From NCBI RefSeq assembly GCF_019857225.1, contig NZ_JAFJSY010000054.1, forward strand, positions 1-64,000: 64,000 nucleotides of DNA, read 5' to 3'. Under the pieces are notes generated by a model, which saw nothing but the letters and a program-made list of their open reading frames with translations, made no database searches and was not told the DNA's origin. The position numbers and the translations under genes are program-made. This document shows, piece after piece, positions 47,680 to 57,209 of this stretch. Numbering within the stretch: the stretch's first letter is position 1; every line of letters starts with the position of its first letter. This DNA is from Streptomyces plumbidurans (GTDB taxonomy: Bacteria; Actinomycetota; Actinomycetes; Streptomycetales; Streptomycetaceae).

Positions 47680-50004
47680 CTACCGGGCTCTGCTCGGCTC
47701 GACTCGGATCAGGATGGACTTCGTCGTCGGGGTGTTGCTCGTCTCGGCCGTGGCGTCCAGGGCGACCAGTACGTTCGTTTCCGGGAAGTAGGCGGCGGCG
47801 CAGCCGCGGGGTGTGGGGTAGCGGACGGCGCGGAAGCCGGGGGCGCGGCGCTCACCGTCGGGGTTGACGCTGATCAGGTCGACCAGGTCACCGTCGCCCA
47901 GGTGGAGGTCGCGCAGGTCGTCCCGGTTGAGGAAGACGACGCGTCGCCCGCCCTTGATGCCGCGGTAGCGGTCGTCGAGGCCGTAGACGGTGGTGTTGAA
48001 CTGGTCGTGCGACCGTACCGTCGTCAACAGCAGGTGCCCTGGCGGGACTTCGTGTGCCGTCGGAGGGTTGACGGTGAAGCGGGCCTTCCCGGTCGAGGTG
48101 GGGAAGGTGCGGGAGTCGCGTGGTGGGCGAGGCAGCATGAAGCCGCCGGGTTGCCGGACCCGCTGCTCGAAGGCATGGAATCCCGGGACGACGTGCTCGA
48201 TGTGACGGCGGATCAGGGCGTAGTCGTCGCGCATGGCGTGCCAGCCGAGGTCCTCGCCGAACAGCGTGTGCCCGAGGTCGGCGATGATCGCGACCTCGCT
48301 GCGCAGGTGCGGAGATCCGGGAAGGAGGCGTCCGCGTGAGGCGTGGACCATGGCCATGGTGTCCTCCACGGTGACGAACTGCTCGCCGGTGGCCTGCCGA
48401 TCGCGTTCCGTGCGGCCGAGACAGGGCAGGAGCAGGGCCTCGGTGCCGTGGCACACATGGGTCCGGTTCAGTTTCGTCGCGACATGGACGGTGAGGGCGC
48501 AGCCGCGCAGGGCGGCCTCCGTGACGTCCGTGTCCGGGGTGGCCGAGGCGAAGTTGCCACCGAGCCCGATGAACACATCGATGGTGCCGTCGCGCATCGC
48601 CTTGATCGAATCGACGGTGTCCAGGCCGTGGGCGCGGGGCGGTTCGAAGTCGAACTCGTCGCGGAGCCTGTCCAGGAACGCGTCCGGCATCTTCTCCCAG
48701 ACGCCCATGGTGCGATCGCCCTGGACATTGCTGTGACCGCGGATCGGGGCGGGGCCGGCGCCGGGACGGCCGATATTGCCCCGCAGCAGAAGGAAGTTGA
48801 CGACCTCGCGGATGGTGGCCACCGCGTTGCGGTGCTGGGTGAGTCCCATCGCCCAGCAGACGATCACGCTGTCGGCCCTGAGCACATCAGCGGCACAGTC
48901 CTCGATCGTGCCGCGGGACAGACCGCTCAGCGTCTCGATCTCCGACCAGTCCAGCGCGCGCCACGCGGCCGCGGCTGCCTCGAAGCCGTCGCAGTAACGG
49001 TCGATGAAGTCGCGGTCGAGGGTGGAGCCGGGCCGGGCGTCCTCCCGCTCGATCAGTGCGCGGTTCAGTCCTGCGAAGAGAGCCAGATCGCCGTTGATGC
49101 GCACGGGGAGGTGACGATCGGCGAGCTGCGTACCAGGGCCTGCCAGGCCACGGCCGGTCTGCGGGTTGTGGAAGCGGCCGAAGCCCGCCTCGGGGAGGGG
49201 GTTGGCCGCGATGATGCGCGCACCGCGTCGTTTGGCCTGCTCCAGTGCGGTGAGCATGCGGGGATGGCAGGTGCCGGGATTCTGGCCCACGATGATGATC
49301 AGGTCGGCGTGGTCGGTGATGTCCGCATAGGTGATCAGGCCTTTGCCGATGCCGAGCGTCTCGGCCAGGGCCGCGCCGCTCGATTCGTGGCACATGTTCG
49401 AGCAGTCGGGCAGGTTGTTGGTGCCGAATCGGCGTGCCAGCAGCTGGTAGAGGAAGGCGGCCTCGTTGCTCGTCCGACCGCTGGTGTAGAACACGGCGCG
49501 ATCGGGATCGGCCAGCCCGCGCAGGCGCTCAGCCGTCAGCATCAGCGCATCGTCCCAGCTGATGGGCGCATAGTGAGTGGCGCCTGGCGCGAGATGCATC
49601 GGCTGGGCGAGGCGGCCCTGTGCCTCCAGCCAGTGACCGTCCCGTTCACGCAGGTCGGAGATGGGATGCTGGGCGAAGAAGGACGCGTCGACGCGTTTGC
49701 GGGTGGCTTCCCAGGCGACGGCCTTCGCGCCGTTCTCGCAGAACTCCGCGCTCTTACGGTGCTCGGGATCAGGGTCGCCCCATGCGCAGCTGGGGCAGTC
49801 GAAGCCGTCCACGTGGTTCACCGACAAGAGCGTTTGCAGACTCCGCCTCGGACCCATTTCCTCCAGGGAGTAGTGCGCGGATTCGACGATGCCGTGAATT
49901 CCGACGCTGGACTTCTTGGGACCTGACGACATCGGTTCCGACTCCGGCGGAGCGTTCCCCGCCGCAGGGCTCGTGCCGGTCGGACGAGTCGGTTGCTCAG
50001 CCAT
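47680..50004 (-). CDS. FdhF/YdeP family molybdopterin oxidoreductase
   Basis: A 774-residue formate-dehydrogenase-like protein. The N-terminal region has FDCPSCAWGDPDPEHRKSAEFCENGAKA, the YdeP-type variant with only three evident Cys in place of the four-Cys cluster motif. Molybdopterin-binding parts follow: FYTSGRTSNEAAFLYQLLARRFGTNNLPDCSNMCHES, IIIVGQNPGTCHPRML and the C-terminal TVRSHDQFNTTVYGLDDRYRGI. Substrate is unknown; YdeP of E. coli is linked to acid resistance. Start is ATG 50004; ATG 49932 with GGAG is an alternative. It is 21 nt downstream of the membrane gene. Confidence 0.9.
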   Translation of the reverse strand: MAEQPTRPTGTSPAAGNAPPESEPMSSGPKKSSVGIHGIVESAHYSLEEMGPRRSLQTLLSVNHVDGFDCPSCAWGDPDPEHRKSAEFCENGAKAVAWEATRKRVDASFFAQHPISDLRERDGHWLEAQGRLAQPMHLAPGATHYAPISWDDALMLTAERLRGLADPDRAVFYTSGRTSNEAAFLYQLLARRFGTNNLPDCSNMCHESSGAALAETLGIGKGLITYADITDHADLIIIVGQNPGTCHPRMLTALEQAKRRGARIIAANPLPEAGFGRFHNPQTGRGLAGPGTQLADRHLPVRINGDLALFAGLNRALIEREDARPGSTLDRDFIDRYCDGFEAAAAAWRALDWSEIETLSGLSRGTIEDCAADVLRADSVIVCWAMGLTQHRNAVATIREVVNFLLLRGNIGRPGAGPAPIRGHSNVQGDRTMGVWEKMPDAFLDRLRDEFDFEPPRAHGLDTVDSIKAMRDGTIDVFIGLGGNFASATPDTDVTEAALRGCALTVHVATKLNRTHVCHGTEALLLPCLGRTERDRQATGEQFVTVEDTMAMVHASRGRLLPGSPHLRSEVAIIADLGHTLFGEDLGWHAMRDDYALIRRHIEHVVPGFHAFEQRVRQPGGFMLPRPPRDSRTFPTSTGKARFTVNPPTAHEVPPGHLLLTTVRSHDQFNTTVYGLDDRYRGIKGGRRVVFLNRDDLRDLHLGDGDLVDLISVNPDGERRAPGFRAVRYPTPRGCAAAYFPETNVLVALDATAETSNTPTTKSILIRVEPSRAR

Positions 50005-50025
50005 GACCGATGACCGCCTCTTTGT

Positions 50026-50613
50026 TCATACGGACCAGTGATATCCGAGGGTGAAGTTGACCGTGGCGGCGTACGCGAGATACATGAGCCAACCGCCGGT
50101 CGCGATGTGGAAGAGTCCCAACGCGCGTTCTCCGATCGCGAGTCCGACCGAGGCGAAGAGGTCGAAGAAGTAGATCGCGAACAGTCCCAGGAAGAGCAGG
50201 CCGACCGGCCAGTCGGCAACCTTGAAGAAAACTGTCGCGCCCATCGCGGAGATCACCATGAAGGCGACGCACATGCCTGCGTTGGTGCGTGGATCATTGC
50301 CGCGATACCGGTTCCAGCCGATCGCGAACCAGTGAATGCCGTAGGCCGAGAACGCCAGCGCTGCCATGTACAGCGGCGGTTCCTTCGCGAATACCTGGAG
50401 CCAGGTGAGCCCGACGAACAGGATCATTCCCGTGATGAGCTGGCACAGGCCGGGCATCCAGATGCCCCAGACCCCGAGCCCCCGGTTCACCGCATCGCTC
50501 TTCGGTGGATAGCCGAACAATTCGTGCGGACCGTAGATCAGATAGCCGGTGCCGAGGCCGAAGAAGCCGAGCGCCAGCGGCGGAAATACCGAGGGGGCGA
50601 ATGTCACGTCCAT
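50026..50613 (-). CDS. Acetate uptake transporter-like membrane protein (GPR1/FUN34/YaaH-like)
   Basis: A 195-residue protein with six predicted membrane segments and a strong GGAGGAG before ATG 50613. FPPLALGFFGLGTGYLIYGPHELFGYPP and GIWMPGLCQLITGMILFV follow the layout of the AceTr family, but the hallmark NPAPLGL is replaced by FPPLALG, so the assignment is tentative. It may move acetate or formate-like acids for the downstream oxidoreductase. The 339-bp region 50614-50952 between it and the next gene shows no gene, only presumed promoters. Confidence 0.65.
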   Translation of the reverse strand: MDVTFAPSVFPPLALGFFGLGTGYLIYGPHELFGYPPKSDAVNRGLGVWGIWMPGLCQLITGMILFVGLTWLQVFAKEPPLYMAALAFSAYGIHWFAIGWNRYRGNDPRTNAGMCVAFMVISAMGATVFFKVADWPVGLLFLGLFAIYFFDLFASVGLAIGERALGLFHIATGGWLMYLAYAATVNFTLGYHWSV

Positions 50614-50952
50614 CGTTCTCCTCCTCTGAAGAAGAACCGACGATGATGTCCTCATGACCGGCGGTCGAGCTGCCCACCCCGTCCAGGACCCCGGCGCCAC
50701 CCGGAACCGTGATCACTGGGAACACGCTCCGCCGCGCACAATCTCTTTACGAGTCTCCGCCTGCTCCGGCCCCTTTCGTATGATGCAGCTCACAAATCGA
50801 CGGACTTTTGCAGTGCCGCCTGCTTCTGCCCGTCGCGAGGTCATGTCGGGCGGGCCCCGGGGTCACCCGTTTGGCGGTACGGGGTGAGCGGGGGTGGCTG
50901 GTGGGGGTGATGGTGGGACTGTCTGCAGATCTCCCTTCGGAGGAGTTTGATC

Positions 50953-51171
50953 ATGGTCATTCAGAAGCTGCACGAGGCGGGTTTGCGCAGTGATCACGCC
51001 TACACGGCTGCGGTTGTCTCGATCGGGCTGTCGTTCTTGTCGTGGACGGCGTCGGTCAAGGGAGAGGCAGCGGGGACGGATCGCGCCGACCGGTGGGGGA
51101 TCTTCGTGGGTGAGTGGGCGCCTACGTTCTTCGGTCTCGGGCTAGCGCTGGCCCAGTACGAGCAGGACTGA
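50953..51171 (+). CDS. Small conserved-looking membrane protein, unknown function
   Basis: A 72-residue protein from ATG 50953, behind GGAGGAG with 7-nt spacing. It has two hydrophobic stretches (AYTAAVVSIGLSFLSW and WGIFVGEWAPTFFGLGLAL) separated by a charged loop. I recall similar small proteins scattered through Streptomyces genomes without assigned function. It is followed by a strong terminator. Confidence 0.7.
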   Translation: MVIQKLHEAGLRSDHAYTAAVVSIGLSFLSWTASVKGEAAGTDRADRWGIFVGEWAPTFFGLGLALAQYEQD

Positions 51172-51191
51172 CGAGGCGGCGTCTGGTTCCT

Positions 51192-51219
51192 GTGGGGTCG
51201 GCCAGGGGGCCGACCCCAC
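51192..51219. terminator. Strong bidirectional hairpin terminator
   Basis: GTGGGGTCGGCC, loop AGGG, exact complement. It lies between two converging genes. Confidence 0.85.
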
Positions 51220-51260
51220 TTGTGTGTCTGGACGGCGGTCGTGGCGCTGGGAGGGGTGTG

Positions 51261-52373
51261 TCAATGGGAGGGGCGCATGGTGGGCTGTTGTCGAGTGATC
51301 ATCCAGTGGCTGAAGGCGACGTAATGCCGCGCGAACTCCTGCGGTGTGGGCGCGTGTTCGACGGCCGCGGACAGGCGCGCGACGTGGGCGTAGTGCGGGA
51401 TCTGTACGGTCTCGTAGGCGGCCAGTGCAGCGGGTACGTCGCGGCCGGCGCCGAGCAGGTGCCCGAGCAGGGCGGCGTCCTCGATGCCCAGGGTCGCTCC
51501 GGCGGTGATGTGCGGAGACATCGCGTGCGCCGCGTCCCCGGCCAGAACGACCCGCCTGGAGGCCCAGTGGGGGAGCGGCGGCACCAGCATGACCTGGTGG
51601 TGCAGGACCCGCTCCTCGGGCGTGGCCGCGATCAGCCGGGCCATGGTCCCGTCCCGCCCACCGTCCTCAAGGTGCACGATCCTTTCCAACGCCTCCTGCT
51701 TCGAACTGCCCATGGGTGAAGGCGAGTTGAACTGGTTCACCAGCCAGTAGACGCTGCCGTCGTGGGTGCGTACGTAGCCGCCGCGGCAGCCGTTGGTGCC
51801 CAGGATCAACCGGTCCTCGGTCACCGTTCCGGCGGCGTCCGGGATGACGGCCCGCCAGGAGTAGTGACCTGCGTGCTTCTGTGCCGCAGCGCCCGGTACC
51901 AATTGGGCGCGCACCGCCGAGTGCGCCCCGTCCGCCCCGACGAGCACATCGGCGTCCAGGCTGACGGCGTCGGACAGGTGGACCGTGACGTGGTCCGCGT
52001 GCTCCTCGTACGCCGTGAAGCCGCTGGACAAGCGGATGTTGTCCCGCCCGACGGCGTCGGCGAGCAGATCGTTGAGCTTGGCCCGGTGGACCAGCAGGTA
52101 CTGATGGTCCTCGGGACCGTAGCCAGGGGTGTCGAGCAGGCTTCCGGCCGGATCGTGGAAGTGCATCTCGGTGGGTGCGCCGATATTGCGCACCTGCTCT
52201 CCTACGCCGAGATCGTCGAAGACCGCCAGCGCGTTCGCCCACAGCCCCAGCGAGGCACCGGCCGCGCGGATCTCCGGCGCGCGCTCACAGATCACTACCT
52301 CGAACCCGGCCCGGCGCAGCGCGAGCCCGGTCGTCAGGCCCACGATCCCGGCACCGATCACGACCGCGCGCAT
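51261..52373 (-). CDS. FAD-dependent monooxygenase (PHBH-like)
   Basis: A 370-residue group A flavoprotein hydroxylase. The GxGxxG motif opens the protein (AVVIGAGIVGLTTGLALRRAG), the DG motif is LVGADGAHSAVR, and the GD motif is RRVVLAGDAAHAMSPH. The C-terminus HYVAFSHWM is short. It hydroxylates a small aromatic or polyketide-like substrate using NAD(P)H and O2. Its ATG at 52373 overlaps the stop of a 30-codon ORF by one base, so it is translationally coupled. A LysR gene lies divergent. Confidence 0.9.
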   Translation of the reverse strand: MRAVVIGAGIVGLTTGLALRRAGFEVVICERAPEIRAAGASLGLWANALAVFDDLGVGEQVRNIGAPTEMHFHDPAGSLLDTPGYGPEDHQYLLVHRAKLNDLLADAVGRDNIRLSSGFTAYEEHADHVTVHLSDAVSLDADVLVGADGAHSAVRAQLVPGAAAQKHAGHYSWRAVIPDAAGTVTEDRLILGTNGCRGGYVRTHDGSVYWLVNQFNSPSPMGSSKQEALERIVHLEDGGRDGTMARLIAATPEERVLHHQVMLVPPLPHWASRRVVLAGDAAHAMSPHITAGATLGIEDAALLGHLLGAGRDVPAALAAYETVQIPHYAHVARLSAAVEHAPTPQEFARHYVAFSHWMITRQQPTMRPSH

Positions 52374-52465
52374 CACAGCGCTCCCGTGATCGCGCCGGCG
52401 TTGCGACGGCTGGAGTCATGGTGCTCGCAGTGGCGAGATGAGGGTGGGCAGGTGTGGGTGTCCAT
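52373..52465 (-). CDS. Short Cys/His-rich leader ORF coupled to the monooxygenase
   Basis: ATG 52465 sits behind a near-perfect AGGAGGACGCC ribosome site. The 30-codon product begins MDTHTCPPSSRHCEHHDSSR and ends GAITGAL; four of its first 16 residues are His and two Cys. Its TGA shares the A with the next ATG (TGATG). It is too short for standard ORF cut-offs. A regulatory leader peptide or a tiny metal-binding protein are both possible; the coupling itself is plain in the sequence. Confidence 0.6.
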   Translation of the reverse strand: MDTHTCPPSSRHCEHHDSSRRNAGAITGAL

Positions 52466-52514
52466 GGCGTCCTCCTGGGGTCGTCGAATGCCTCCGACGC
52501 TACGAACCAGAGCC

Positions 52515-52533
52515 GATTGACACCAGTGCAATC
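52515..52533. promoter_or_regulatory. Candidate LysR box
   Basis: GATTG-N9-CAATC is an inverted repeat containing the T-N11-A core of LysR sites, located between the divergent LysR and leader/monooxygenase genes. Confidence 0.5.
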
Positions 52534-52569
52534 TTGATAGGGACTCTTTTCGCAGCTGATAATCCAGGG

Positions 52570-53490
52570 ATGGACCATGCCGATCTGAGCCTGATCGAGG
52601 CCCTGGACGCGCTTCTTGCCGAAAACAGCGTGACGAGGGCCGCGGAACGCCTGCACACGTCACCGCCCGCGATGAGCCGAGCCCTGGCCCGGCTGCGTCG
52701 CGCCTTCGACGACCCGCTCCTCGTACGCGCCGGACGCGACCTCGTGCCCACGCCTCGCGCGCTGGAACTACGGGGGGAGGTGCACGCGGTGGCGGCCAGG
52801 GCGCGGGCGCTGTTCGCGCCGTCCGGCACCGCCGATCCCAGCACCGCCGTGCGCACCTTCGACCTCCAGGTGAACGACATGCTGTCCACCACCTTCATCC
52901 CGCCCCTCCTCGACGACCTACGGGCCCGGGCGCCCGGCATCTCGCTGCGCCTGCGGCCGGAGACCATCGAGGAAACCCCGGCCCTGCGCGAGGGGTTGGT
53001 CGATCTGGAGATCGGTCTCGTGCGGCCCTGGGACCCGGAGATCCACTCGGAAACCCTGCTGACCGAGACGCTGATCGGTGTCGTACGCCCGGAACATCCG
53101 CTGGCGAGGGCGAAGACCGTCACACCGCGACGGTTCGCCGGGACCGATCACATCGTCGTGTCCCGGCGCGGTCGGGCGCACGGACCGATCGACGAACGGC
53201 TCGCCGAACTGGGCCTGAGCCGGCGCGTGGTCGCCGTGGTCCCCACTGTCGCGACCGCCCTGTTCCTGGCCCGCCAGACCGACGTCGTCAGCGTGGCGCC
53301 GCTGGGACTCGGCCGGCCAATGCTGGAGACACTCGGCCTGCGCACCTTCCCCATCCCTCTGCCCCTGCCGCACCTGACCATCGGCATGGCATGGCACCCC
53401 CGCAACCACCATGACCGCACACACCAGTTGCTACGCGAACGCACCCGCCACATCATGACTGGCGCTGCCGACAGTGGGGGGCTGGGGTGA
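52570..53490 (+). CDS. LysR family regulator
   Basis: A 306-residue regulator from ATG 52570. The winged helix spans residues 5-65 (LSLIEALDALLAENSVTRAAERLHTSPPAMSRALARLRRAFDDPLLVRAGR). The effector domain follows with DLQVNDMLSTTFIPPLLDDLRARAPGISLRLRP, of NahR/NodD-like type. Divergence and the LysR box make the leader/monooxygenase pair its probable target. Confidence 0.92.
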   Translation: MDHADLSLIEALDALLAENSVTRAAERLHTSPPAMSRALARLRRAFDDPLLVRAGRDLVPTPRALELRGEVHAVAARARALFAPSGTADPSTAVRTFDLQVNDMLSTTFIPPLLDDLRARAPGISLRLRPETIEETPALREGLVDLEIGLVRPWDPEIHSETLLTETLIGVVRPEHPLARAKTVTPRRFAGTDHIVVSRRGRAHGPIDERLAELGLSRRVVAVVPTVATALFLARQTDVVSVAPLGLGRPMLETLGLRTFPIPLPLPHLTIGMAWHPRNHHDRTHQLLRERTRHIMTGAADSGGLG

Positions 53491-53539
53491 TGCCCAGGCA
53501 GGGGTGATGCCGAGTCAGGGGTGACGCGGTGTGTGCTCG

Positions 53540-53890
53540 TCGGCGCGCTCTGGGCGTCAGCCGAAGCGTGGCAAGGTGTTCCGCTTCGCCGAGCCGGAGA
53601 CCTGGGGTCGGCTGGACGCGGCAGCCGTGCAGGTCACCGACCGGTACGGCACCGCCCGTGCCATGGTCTGGGACGGCATCCACCCCGCCTGACCACCCGC
53701 TCCGCGTGGAACGACCACACCAGCGAACTCCCCATCATGCGAAAGCATGTTGATCAGCCTCCAGGTCGACCGCCTGCCCCTCGGTGGCGACCCGCTCTCG
53801 TTCTGGCTCTGGTCATCGGCCACCGGCTTGAACAGCGAGGAAGCCGCCATGCGCTGGCAGGCGTGGGTCCCGGAACCCCCGCCCGCACGT
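53540..53890 (+). pseudogene. Degraded transposase remnant
   Basis: Three frames in sequence encode parts of one transposase type: RQPKRGKVFRFAEPETWGRL and DRYGTARAMVWDGIHP in the first, HPPRLTTRSAWNDHTSELPI in the second, then LISLQVDRLPLGGDPLSFWLWSSATGL in the third. I associate this order with an IS701-like transposase common in Streptomyces. Both ends are missing and no terminal repeats are visible. Confidence 0.7.
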
Positions 53891-53968
53891 GCGCTGACCG
53901 ACCCGTGCATCAACCCAACACCCGGCGTTGGTGTACCACTTGGATCGAAAACCCTGCGGCCTGGAGGA

Positions 53969-54577
53969 TCACCGCGTCAGGCGTTCGATCAGCGTTTGCC
54001 AGGCGTCGGCCAGGAGGTCGTAGATCTCCGCCGTTTCGTTCGCGTCGGTGTCGGGGCGCGAGAGGTAGAGCAGCAGGGGGCCCTCGAGGGCGGCGGTGAG
54101 CTGGATCGCGACGCCGGCGATGTTCGGCATCGGTGCTCCTTGCTGGAGCAGTACGCGGATGTGGAGTTGGGTCACCGAAGGGTCGCCGACCGGGGCGGGC
54201 TGATTGCGGTCGAGTGCGGCCCGCGCGATGACGTGGTGGTCCAGGAGGAAGGCGATGCGGGCGCGGCCGTAGGCGATGAGACGGTCGATGGGCTCGGCGC
54301 CCGGCCCCAGGGGCGGTGGCCCGGACATCACCTGTTCTTGGAACCGCCGCTCGTCCGCGTCGAGCAGCGCCCGGAAGATGCCGGCTCGGGTGCCGAAGTG
54401 GCGGAAGACGGTGCCCTTGCCGAGGCAGGCGCGTTCGGCGAGGCCGTCCATGGTGACCTTGTCCGCGCCGCACTCCGCGAGCATCTCGCGGGCGGTTTTG
54501 AGCAGGTGTTCGCGGTTGCGCACCGCGTCGGCGCGTTCGGCGCGCGGTTTTCCGAAGGGCACTACGGGGCGATCCAC
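53969..54577 (-). CDS. TetR/AcrR family regulator
   Basis: A 202-residue regulator. The DNA-binding part is residues 18-65 (DAVRNREHLLKTAREMLAECGADKVTMDGLAERACLGKGTVFRHFGTRAGIFRALL), and the C-terminal half resembles the SbtR/TetR_C_36-like group (LIAYGRARIAFLLDHHVIARAALDR). It is divergent from the azoreductase gene across 164 bp and likely controls it. Confidence 0.92.
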   Translation of the reverse strand: MDRPVVPFGKPRAERADAVRNREHLLKTAREMLAECGADKVTMDGLAERACLGKGTVFRHFGTRAGIFRALLDADERRFQEQVMSGPPPLGPGAEPIDRLIAYGRARIAFLLDHHVIARAALDRNQPAPVGDPSVTQLHIRVLLQQGAPMPNIAGVAIQLTAALEGPLLLYLSRPDTDANETAEIYDLLADAWQTLIERLTR

Positions 54578-54741
54578 AGGATCAACTTACAGGCACGACT
54601 ATGAAGCGGGGTAAAGTCCGTTTATGCTGAGGCTGCGGCACGCCGGGCCCTTGGCCTGTCGCATTGCCACATCCATGGCACGTCCCGCACGACTCGCACG
54701 ACCCATCCGTGGATTACTGCTTCTACCGAGGGATCACGACC

Positions 54742-55374
54742 ATGAATCTGTTCCGCCTGGATGCCAGCATCCTGCCGAGCGCCTCCACCACCGCCGAGAT
54801 CGCCGACATCATCGAGACCGAGTGGACCGCGGCGCACCCTGGAGCCACGGTGACCCGGCGCCACCTCGGTACCGACACGCTGCCCGCTGACGCCTGGACA
54901 CTCGCCACGACCGCGGGCTTCACCCCTGAAGGGGAGCGGACCCCGGCCCAACGCGAGGCGCTCGCCCTGGGTGCGGCGCTCGCCGAGGAGGTGCAGAACG
55001 CGGACGCTGCGGTCGTGGCCGTCCCGCTGTACAACTACGGCGTTTCCCAGCACTTCAAGGCCTGGGTGGACCTCGTCATCGCGGGCGCCGGCCCCACCAC
55101 CCCGCTGCTCAAGGACACACCGACCGTGCTGGTCACCTCGTTGGGAGGCGGCTATGGGCCCGGCACCCCCCGTGAGGGCTGGGACCACTCCACCCCCTAC
55201 CTGCAGCGGATCCTCGCCGACGTCTGGGAGGCCGATCTGGCCGTCATCAAGCGAGAGTTGACCCTGGCCGCCACCGCGCCCGGCATGGAGAGCCTGCGAG
55301 ACCTCGCTGCACAGCTGCACACCGACGCACTCGCCGCAGCCCGCGAGACAGGCAAGACGCTCGCCCGACGCTGA
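54742..55374 (+). CDS. FMN-dependent NADH-azoreductase-like flavodoxin-fold protein
   Basis: A 210-residue protein; ATG 54742 follows GAGGGA. It opens MNLFRLDASILPSASTTAEIADIIETEW, has AVVAVPLYNYGVSQHFKAWVDLVIAGAG (the FMN-binding P-x-YN-x2-P-x2-LK-like loop) and VLVTSLGGGYGPGTPREGWDHSTPYLQRIL, as in AcpD azoreductases. These reduce quinones or azo compounds. Probably under the divergent TetR. The 240-bp gap after it (55375-55614) shows no gene. Confidence 0.9.
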   Translation: MNLFRLDASILPSASTTAEIADIIETEWTAAHPGATVTRRHLGTDTLPADAWTLATTAGFTPEGERTPAQREALALGAALAEEVQNADAAVVAVPLYNYGVSQHFKAWVDLVIAGAGPTTPLLKDTPTVLVTSLGGGYGPGTPREGWDHSTPYLQRILADVWEADLAVIKRELTLAATAPGMESLRDLAAQLHTDALAAARETGKTLARR

Positions 55375-55614
55375 CTGCGTCCGCCTGGTGGGGGGGGCGA
55401 CCGCGCGCCACGTCCCCCGCCGGGGCAGGCGCCGTGGTGGTGTGCCCCGGTGAGGCCGGCCGCGTGCCGGCGGATCGGTCAACAAGCCGTTCCCCAGCCG
55501 CTCGCCTCTATCCCCGCGAGAACCCGGCGGACCGTGCGCGAAGCAGGGCTGCCGACCCACTTCCTACGTGTTGACGTCTCTGGGCACCTTGCTCGCGCGG
55601 CGGTGGCCGGCCGC

Positions 55615-56496
55615 TCACTTCTTGGGCGGCGAGTTCTGCGCGGGATGCGACGGTCCGTGATCCGTGACGGATCCGCCAGGCCGCCCGGCGAGAGGGGTGG
55701 AGTCGAGATAGCGGATCTCGTAGGCGCGTTCAGTGAAGCGCCAGCCCTCCGGGGTGCGCTCGTAACGGTCGTGGTAGATCCCGTAGTTGAGGTGTGAGGT
55801 GCCGTCACGCATCCAGATGATTTCGGAGAGATGGGCGCGGCCGGTCGCGGTGTCTCCTGAGAGCAAGGTGACCCCTGAGTGGGTCGTCTGGACGAAGACC
55901 TCGAAGTGGGACTCGCGTTGCTGCCCGAGCGTCCGAATGCTGTCGCGGCCGGCGGCCTCGATGCCGGCGGCCGGAATCCGGACGACGCCGTCGGGTGTGA
56001 AGAGTGAGGCAAGTCGGTCGTGGTCGTTCATCATGGCGGCGTCTGTGAAGTGAGCGCGTAGCGCGTCGATCTCGATGCGGTCTTGCAGCTCGTCCCGTTC
56101 GCTTGTCGCCGCCTCGCTCACCAGTCGCCCGCCGACGGCGGTGCGTTCGTCGCGCGTGGTCACCAGGTCGACGACGATCGCGTCGCGATGTTGCTCGCCG
56201 AGCGCCGTGGCGACCGCGTCTGTCACTGCTGCGACGAGCCGGGCCGCGATGTCCGGGCCGTCGGGCCCGGCCAGCGCCTTGTCCCGGATGGCGAGCGTCA
56301 CGGTCGGCCCCACTTCGTGGCGGGCAACCCCTCCGACGGCCCAGCGGCCGACGGCGAGGCCGACGAGTCGTACGACCACGAGGCTGCGAGCCCACTCGCC
56401 GTAGACGGAGGTGACCGCATCCGTGAGGCGGGCGCTGAGGTCGTTCTCGTGGCCGGTGAGCTGAGGCTCGAGAGCGTGGACGGTGAGATGAGGCAT
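55615..56496 (-). CDS. Tautomerase-SnoaL fusion protein
   Basis: A 293-residue two-domain protein. Residues 2-105 look like a double 4-oxalocrotonate-tautomerase-type unit starting MPHLTV, which would leave Pro1 at the N-terminus; a second beta-alpha-beta part reads VGPTVTLAIRDKALAGPDG...LVAAVTDAVATAL. Residues 135-265 are SnoaL/NTF2-like (DRIEIDALRAHFTDAAMMNDHDRLASLFTPDGVVRIPA...YGIYHDRYERTPEGWRFTERAYEIRYLD). It is the second gene after the FMN reductase (52-nt gap). Pathway unknown. Confidence 0.75.
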   Translation of the reverse strand: MPHLTVHALEPQLTGHENDLSARLTDAVTSVYGEWARSLVVVRLVGLAVGRWAVGGVARHEVGPTVTLAIRDKALAGPDGPDIAARLVAAVTDAVATALGEQHRDAIVVDLVTTRDERTAVGGRLVSEAATSERDELQDRIEIDALRAHFTDAAMMNDHDRLASLFTPDGVVRIPAAGIEAAGRDSIRTLGQQRESHFEVFVQTTHSGVTLLSGDTATGRAHLSEIIWMRDGTSHLNYGIYHDRYERTPEGWRFTERAYEIRYLDSTPLAGRPGGSVTDHGPSHPAQNSPPKK

Positions 56497-56548
56497 GGCT
56501 GGTCGTCTCTCTTCTGGTTTGCATCGGTTGTCCCGCAGGTGCGGCAGC

Positions 56549-57127
56549 TCAGGCGACGGGCGCCGGGTGGGCGCTACGCACAGGTTCGAGTGCCTCGGTC
56601 CAGGCGACGACACGGTCCAGCAGGTCCTCCAGCGAGCGAGCCCTGGAGTCGTTCGGAGCGAACACCGAGTAGTTCTCGAAGTCCGCGGCCAGGTGGAGGG
56701 AGACCTGGGCCGGCACGTCGGCGAGTCCGAGCAGACCGCAGATCTGCCGCAGTTGGGCCGCGGACCCGGTGCCGCCGGCGACGCCGTAGGAGACGATTCC
56801 GGCGGCCTTGTTGGCCCAGCCGGTGTAGACGAAGTCGATGGCGTTCTTGAGGGCCGCGGGGAGCTGGTTGTTGTACTCCGGCGTGACGAACACGAATCCG
56901 TCGTACGCGTCGATCGTGCGCACCCAGGCCTGCGCCTCGGGGCCTCCGGTTCCGCCCATGGCGGGTGGAAGGGTCTGATCGAAGAGCGGAAGGCGGAACT
57001 CGGCGAGATCGACGAGCTCGAACTCGGCGTCCGACCTTGACGTCGAGACGTCGTGGACCCACGCGGCGACCTGCGCGCCGAGCCGTCCCGGACGGGTGCT
57101 GCCGATGATGATGCCGATCTTGGTCAT
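56549..57127 (-). CDS. NAD(P)H-dependent FMN reductase
   Basis: A 192-residue flavodoxin-fold enzyme; ATG 57127 has AGGAGA upstream. GIIIGSTRPGRLGAQVAAWV binds the FMN phosphate, and FVFVTPEYNNQLPAALKNAIDFVYTGWANKAAGIVSYG is the family signature. It supplies reduced flavin or reduces quinones. It leads the two-gene operon with the tautomerase-SnoaL protein and is divergent from sigJ. Confidence 0.93.
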   Translation of the reverse strand: MTKIGIIIGSTRPGRLGAQVAAWVHDVSTSRSDAEFELVDLAEFRLPLFDQTLPPAMGGTGGPEAQAWVRTIDAYDGFVFVTPEYNNQLPAALKNAIDFVYTGWANKAAGIVSYGVAGGTGSAAQLRQICGLLGLADVPAQVSLHLAADFENYSVFAPNDSRARSLEDLLDRVVAWTEALEPVRSAHPAPVA

Positions 57128-57209
57128 GTCGCATTCTCCTGTTGCGAATCGGGGCGAACCACAGACATGCGGTCGCCGTTGTGGTCGGCCGATGCAGTAG
57201 GCGGGTGTG

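Follow-up and report, generated by a model that had tools for sequence, protein, structure and literature searches.

A probable translationally coupled leader ORF upstream of a Streptomyces FAD-dependent monooxygenase, at an initiation site that orthologues appear to use as the enzyme N-terminus

Small ORFs coupled to the gene that follows them have been described in mycobacteria, where they comprise 5-50 codons and end on a TGA that overlaps the downstream RTG (Shell et al. 2015, PMC4633059); in the examples of Fig. 6B of that report the architecture is sometimes kept and the peptide sequence is not. The same work describes cysteine-rich mycobacterial uORFs, for example upstream of cysA2, which are conserved and in the cysA2 case carry a Cys cluster (Fig. 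7, PMC4633059). Termination-reinitiation has been reported at gene pairs that overlap as TGATG or ATGA (Huber et al. 2019, PMC6728339), and short uORFs that deliver ribosomes to a downstream gene, with the ORF and not its product being active, are reviewed in PMC12548453. Others have grouped reading-frame transitions with co-located stops and starts into clusters on a genome-wide scale (PMC3711429). A search of open papers by title or opening abstract, covering upstream ORFs and N-terminal extensions, Streptomyces leader peptides and coupling, overlapping-gene coupling and Streptomyces small-ORF profiling, returned no paper on the locus described below or on a switch between leader and extension.

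The window analyzed here is a stretch of 64,000 nucleotides from Streptomyces plumbidurans (contig NZ_JAFJSY010000054.1, positions 1 to 64,000; source genome of 8.6 Mb in 189 contigs). Directly upstream of a monooxygenase gene on its minus strand lies a leader ORF encoding the peptide MDTHTCPPSSRHCEHHDSSRRNAGAITGAL (Table 1). At 30 codons this leader falls within the 5-50-codon range of coupled small ORFs, and its TGA overlaps an RTG at the GTGATG junction. The A of the TGA is also the A of the monooxygenase ATG (TGATG), and a GTG three bases before this ATG, in the same frame, offers an alternative 4-base GTGA overlap. The leader start codon has a strong SD and a -10-like element ~32 nt upstream; a separate GGAG stands 7 nt ahead of the monooxygenase ATG. 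Predicted SD duplex energies were -10.3 kcal/mol for the leader and -6.6 kcal/mol for the monooxygenase site. The first-pass annotation of this DNA had pointed to a near-ideal ribosome site, a 30-codon frame, a one-base stop/start overlap and a LysR box further upstream, and each was found in place, the last as a GATTG-N9-CAATC palindrome.

Table 1. Positions of the leader, monooxygenase and regulator features within the window
Feature	Position	Strand	Basis or remark
30-codon leader ORF	52376..52465	-	sequence and ORF list; relatives; TGA stop at 52375-52373
AGGAGG ribosome site of the leader, spacer of 5 nt before the ATG at 52465	52471..52476	-	
GTGATG junction	52371..52376	-	leader TGA (52375-52373) overlaps monooxygenase ATG (52373-52371) or GTG (52376-52374)
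FAD-dependent monooxygenase	51261..52376	-	Pfam FAD_binding_3
TAGCGT, putative -10-like element of the leader/monooxygenase promoter	52497..52502	-	TANNGT in 13/13 loci
Predicted LysR-type operator, palindrome GATTG-N9-CAATC	52515..52533	.	core TTGCACTGG in 13/13 loci
Divergent LysR-family regulator gene	52570..53490	+	Pfam

The enzyme matched its Pfam family with an E value of 2e-25 and scored under the cut-off for the best 25 of the 124 NCBIfam models matched, the top one being PRK06847 (194 bits against a cut-off of 372); its closest solved structures are the flavoprotein monooxygenases 3rp6 and 3rp8. Redox genes are abundant around the locus (window 47680-57130). An FdhF/YdeP family oxidoreductase lies at 47680-50004, a flavodoxin-fold protein (54664-55374) is divergent from a TetR regulator (53969-54577), and the ORF at 56549-57130 has a weak FMN-reductase match. 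Beside the LysR gene, a 53-residue ORF at 53531-53692 (plus strand) matched positions 220-268 of the 439-position putative transposase model NF041680 (E 1.6e-8, far under the whole-protein cut-off) and is likely a transposase remnant.

We examined how unusual this layout is in a single sequence. We scanned 300 kb of the same genome, in which length and GC pattern, not annotation, served to pick 195 long coding-like ORFs. For these, SD-led ORFs of 8-60 codons that stop on an in-frame start turned up at 8 distinct places (10 rows), seven of them at least 132 nt inside an open main frame; at the eighth, 57 nt of the main frame are open upstream, compared with 39-42 nt for the window leader. Within the window, the leader was the sole match among 31 long ORFs. 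Sequences generated by a first-order Markov model with the base composition of the leader stayed open for 29 codons in 68% of cases. GC3 of the leaders was 0.71-0.80 and was the highest codon position in just 2 of 6. The layout is uncommon, yet possible by chance, and the single-sequence case is no more than suggestive; the real evidence for the leader is its conservation in relatives.

Orthologues of the monooxygenase are rare: 10 of 295 genus genomes matched at E 1e-60, 4 of these 10 (the window's own counted) at 74% identity or more; 3 of 394 in a class draw at E 1e-120 (the window's own counted); 5 of 293 in an order draw at E 1e-110 (the window and repeats counted); 4 of 249 in a family draw at E 1e-110 (the window, repeats and one 51% outgroup counted); and, in further draws, 2 of 120 relatives, 2 of 101 and 1 of 151 in the family of G341, counts that are not independent, as genomes are shared between the genus, class, order, family and relatives draws. 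The operator pattern occurred in 6 of 392 genomes of a separate draw. In 754 plasmid records, all relatives found were below 60% identity. A search of the source genome with the leader returned only itself above noise (next best E 0.55), and paralogous leaders in that genome were ruled out on this basis. The comparison set held 13 distinct loci. Seven, from one scan of named genomes, were those of Streptomyces aurantiacus (L007), S. phaeochromogenes (L008), Rhodococcus rhodnii (L009), Nocardia sp. NRRL S-836 (L010), Kibdelosporangium banguiense (L011), Nonomuraea fuscirosea (L012) and S. cavernae (L013); the others were the window, L016, L017, L025, L032 and L033. Not counted separately were L014, L001 and L029, which are the window itself, L015 and L026 (G032), whose upstream sequence and arrangement are identical to those of L007, and L028 and L031, which are the same places as L017 and L016.

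Comparison of the 13 loci revealed three arrangements. At six of them (type U) the first good ribosome site opens a small SD-led ORF ending at the same TGA, with lengths of 30 codons in the window, 35 in L007, 31 in L008, 31 in L016, 24 in L013 and 10 in L009. At five (type F; L017, L032, L033, L025 and L010) the enzyme itself begins at the first good site, in frame and with an extension of 8-14 residues. At the remaining two (type N; L011 and L012) the enzyme starts at its own Rossmann motif. A 9-codon ORF at L012, lacking a good SD, also stops on the shared TGA, and the enzyme there has a strong GGAGGTG site. The TGA lies in the same column in 8/13 loci. At L013 no more than 9 nt of open monooxygenase frame precede the RAVV codons, so that the first site there is unable to start the enzyme. 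The distances from the start at the first site to the RAVV codons (95, 110, 98, 98, 77 and 35 nt for type U; 30, 30, 42, 27 and 24 nt for type F) fall in two phases and the third was never seen, a pattern that is weak evidence because the two classes were defined by phase. The L025 (G341) monooxygenase frame is broken near residue 63-68, where tblastn gave two pieces in different frames, and would be either a decayed gene or a sequencing error.

The leader start, SD and stop/start overlap recur in L007, L008 and L016, the closest relatives of the window locus, as well as in L013 and, in the 10-codon form, in L009. This recurrence supports coupling of the leader to the monooxygenase, as the first-pass annotation had suggested, and the idea is likely right. 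The check that it had proposed, conservation of the leader in related loci, gave a divided answer: the frame is kept in the closest relatives, but 7 of the 13 loci of the family are without an SD-led coupled leader and the peptide is not conserved.

The operator core and, at a constant distance after it, TANNGT were present at all 13 loci, each of which also has the start codon of its first good site 60-80 nt past the operator (L010 has an alternative GTG start at 57 nt with a 4-base SD); SD matches of at least 4 bases were measured in 10 loci, and the sites in L025, L032 and L033 were picked by reading. A LysR gene adjoins the monooxygenase in nine loci (window, L008, L009, L010, L011, L012, L013, L016 and L025). 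No LysR relative was found within the ~0.65 to 2.5 kb of upstream sequence examined at L007, L017, L032 and L033, where the operator and the -10-like element are kept, so the regulator is presumably elsewhere in these genomes. At L012, a second LysR relative (positions 32-775), 40% identical to that of the window, lies near the divergent one. Two further loci of the same genus (L027 and L030, at about position 1500, in G210 and G251) have the operator TTGCACTGGAGTGAATCCG beside a LysR ~53% identical to that of the window; this operator faces a different gene, starting MSETNDVLAVVSQSGPTVTFFDAATHDRLGEV, that looks like a beta-propeller protein. By this comparison, regulator type and operator appear to be the same and the target swapped.

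We then compared the leader starts with the enzyme N-termini of type F. The leaders begin MDTHTCPP in the window, MDIRTCPA in L013 and VDIRIRPP in L007, L008 and L016; the type F enzymes begin MDIRTRTTTRRAVV (L017), MNLHPRPPAKRAMV (L032), MNIHPRPHSRPPTKRAVV (L033) and MNTHPQPMMRAAV (L025), and these N-termini (e.g. MDIRTR, MNIHPRP) line up with the leader starts. All 2,017 RTG sites of the 13 loci were ranked by how well the 12 nt that follow match the five leader starts. Ranks 1-5 were the five leader starts themselves (self-matches included), rank 6 was the L017 enzyme start and rank 7 the L033 enzyme start. The L009 leader start tied for ranks 8-10 and the L032 enzyme start at 11th-18th with unrelated sites; the L025 start was unremarkable by this measure (142 sites as good), and similarity of the L010 start to the leader starts was absent by the 12-nt match (1,810 sites as good). 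On these matches we regard the initiation site as homologous for L017 and L033 at a minimum; L032 probably belongs here too, given its group. The positions, reading frames and homology of the initiation site are directly established by the comparison; downstream of this site the sequence differs in length and frame. What is new, as we interpret the alignment, is that spacer and frame would decide whether one ribosome site feeds a coupled leader ORF or an N-terminal extension.

A protein tree was built with 7 outgroup loci, L025 being entered as its first 78 residues in one frame. L017, L032, L033 and the L025 fragment grouped together (95/100), the window was nearest to L008, L016 and L007, and L009-L013 formed a mixed set (85/91) with type U, F and N members; the tree gives a fork with no resolved order among these groups. 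At the 8 outgroup loci that were read (L018, L019, L020, L021, L022, L023, L024 and L049), the enzyme starts no more than about six residues from the Rossmann motif with a GGAG-type site just before, three of the starts being TTG codons chosen by judgement. Because the outgroups start near the Rossmann motif, leader and extension both look derived, and they are probably interchangeable. We propose tentatively, as a plausible history that falls short of a probable one, that a conserved ribosome site after the LysR operator has toggled in evolution between a coupled leader ORF and an enzyme N-terminal extension within one orthologous family.

As to function, we consider it probable that the leader is a stop/start-coupled ORF that delivers ribosomes to the monooxygenase by termination-reinitiation on a LysR-controlled mRNA. 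The leader would be the first ORF of this mRNA, whose transcription start and control by LysR are both predicted, and its strong site would load ribosomes near the 5' end, after a 5' UTR of presumably ~25 nt. Ribosomes would translate the short ORF (30 codons; 10-35 in relatives) and terminate at the TGA overlapping the monooxygenase start, where the same or the next ribosome would reinitiate. Conservation would apply to the junction, the opening codons and the ribosome site near the 5' end, and not to the peptide. Where the spacer is in frame and without a stop, the same initiation site would instead begin the monooxygenase, and its codons would become the 8-14-residue N-terminal extension. 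By SD duplex energy the leader has a clear advantage over the enzyme in 4 of the 6 type U loci (window, L007, L008 and L016). At L013 the monooxygenase site is predicted to be the stronger (-8.7 versus -7.1 for the leader) and at L009 the two are nearly equal (-12.0 for the monooxygenase versus -12.5 for the leader), and independent initiation of the enzyme is possible because of these values.

The main alternative is that the small ORF is incidental, an open GC-rich spacer, and that the monooxygenase initiates from its own weak ribosome site. GC-rich sequence is easily open over 29 codons, as the Markov sequences illustrate, the GGAG before the enzyme ATG could serve such initiation, the leader peptide looks unconstrained, and the enzyme starts directly in 2/13 loci and in frame from the first site in 5/13. 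The L012 locus, with its 9-codon ORF lacking a good SD and a strong GGAGGTG site for the enzyme itself, illustrates that a stop/start overlap alone can be incidental. We nevertheless judge this alternative unlikely: the first site is clearly stronger than that of the enzyme in 4/6 leader loci and lies at a near-constant place after the operator, and SD-led leaders of 35, 31, 30, 24 and 10 codons share one TGA end.

A frameshift near the end of the leader, producing a leader-monooxygenase fusion that resembles the in-frame homologues, is very improbable. Such homologues with a homologous start do exist, but by reading there is no common slippery sequence at the junction, and a programmed frameshift was rejected for this reason. 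The 4 bases before the TGA are GCTG in the window and L007, ACTG in L008 and L016, GCTC in L013 and GTTC in L009, the spacers vary in length and sequence, and no extension is needed for a complete Rossmann start, L011, L012 and the 8 outgroup loci that were read being examples.

The first-pass annotation had described the leader as rich in Cys and His and took the design to suit translational control by Cys or His supply, or a tiny metal- or thiol-binding peptide. The leader does contain 4 His and 2 Cys, with the Cys codons non-adjacent and a single His pair. At least six Cys plus His were found in 148 of 12,396 (1.2%) open 29-codon stretches sampled from all frames of the window and in 16% of open sequences from the Markov model built on the leader's own bases; because of these two figures the richness is mild and tied to local base composition. 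Nor is it shared by relatives: Cys/His counts were 2/4 in the window and 0/2, 0/0, 0/0, 1/1 and 0/0 in L007, L008, L016, L013 and L009. We compared codons 2-8 of the five type U leaders other than that of L009. Of 10 pairs, seven had more amino-acid-changing than silent differences, two had more silent ones and one showed no difference; the leaders of L008 and L016 differ at two codons, both residue-changing. Over the first 60 enzyme codons, silent differences exceeded amino-acid-changing ones in 9 of 10 pairs, with a tie in one. By these counts the leader peptide appears to be without visible amino-acid constraint, and the architecture to be kept more than the peptide.

We also examined RNA structure at the junction. 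Only in the window is a strong local hairpin predicted at the enzyme start (z -2.31); z values at the other five type U loci were -0.15, -0.06, 0.50, 1.06 and 1.33. A conserved hairpin gating the enzyme start was rejected, being strong in the window alone, and because RNA unfolding would not be shared, plain termination-reinitiation is the simpler model. The region 51200-53600 gave no Rfam match at E up to 1. Control of the monooxygenase by Cys or His supply through ribosome stalling in the leader, as in attenuation by amino-acid leader peptides, could draw on the six Cys and His among the 30 codons of the window leader and on its hairpin. We give it little credence, less than the frameshift: candidate regulatory codons are not conserved in orthologues (0-1 Cys and 0-2 His per leader, with mostly amino-acid-changing differences), the two Cys codons are non-adjacent with only one His pair, no RNA structure is shared and no known RNA family matched at the junction, and the downstream FAD monooxygenase has no evident link to Cys or His. 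The least probable reading of all is a small trans-acting protein that binds metal or thiols, as the Cys/His content is seen in the window only, candidate ligand residues are not conserved, Pfam and NCBIfam searches with the leader gave nothing at E up to 1, and its own genome yields only the leader itself above noise.

The orthologue comparison illustrates how a sensing leader peptide can be told from a ribosome-delivery ORF. It also defines a small set of loci at which a coupled uORF and a fused N-terminus are alternatives at one start site, a directly testable case of N-terminal extensions arising or decaying, and the true N-terminus of these monooxygenases must be picked locus by locus. 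If the proposed toggling is true, coupled uORFs would be a reservoir for new bacterial protein N-termini, or the remains of old ones; a small frame-changing indel would separate the two forms, and coupling would protect expression while the frame is broken.

The closest described systems resemble this locus in part. Like the mycobacterial coupled ORFs of PMC4633059, it has a small upstream ORF, a TGA/RTG overlap and an architecture kept over the peptide, although 7 of the 13 loci lack the leader. The ORFs described there are leaderless, starting from the first base of the transcript, whereas here a strong SD is present and a 5' UTR of ~25 nt is predicted; the SD and the -10-like element ~32 nt before the start codon would speak against leaderless initiation. 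In this family, moreover, some enzymes appear to take their own N-terminus from the equivalent start. The cysA2 uORF of the same report is likewise a short ORF with Cys codons before a gene; here the Cys and His codons are unconserved and the gene is a monooxygenase. The overlaps are of the same kinds as in the TGATG and ATGA pairs of PMC6728339, but those are gene pairs, whereas at this locus a short unconserved ORF takes the first place. The role proposed here is that of the ribosome-delivering uORFs reviewed in PMC12548453, and the switch to an N-terminal extension lies outside the uORF description in that review. In this comparison the leader is probably a new example of the coupled small ORFs already described, with the twist that its start site is shared with the N-terminus of orthologous enzymes.
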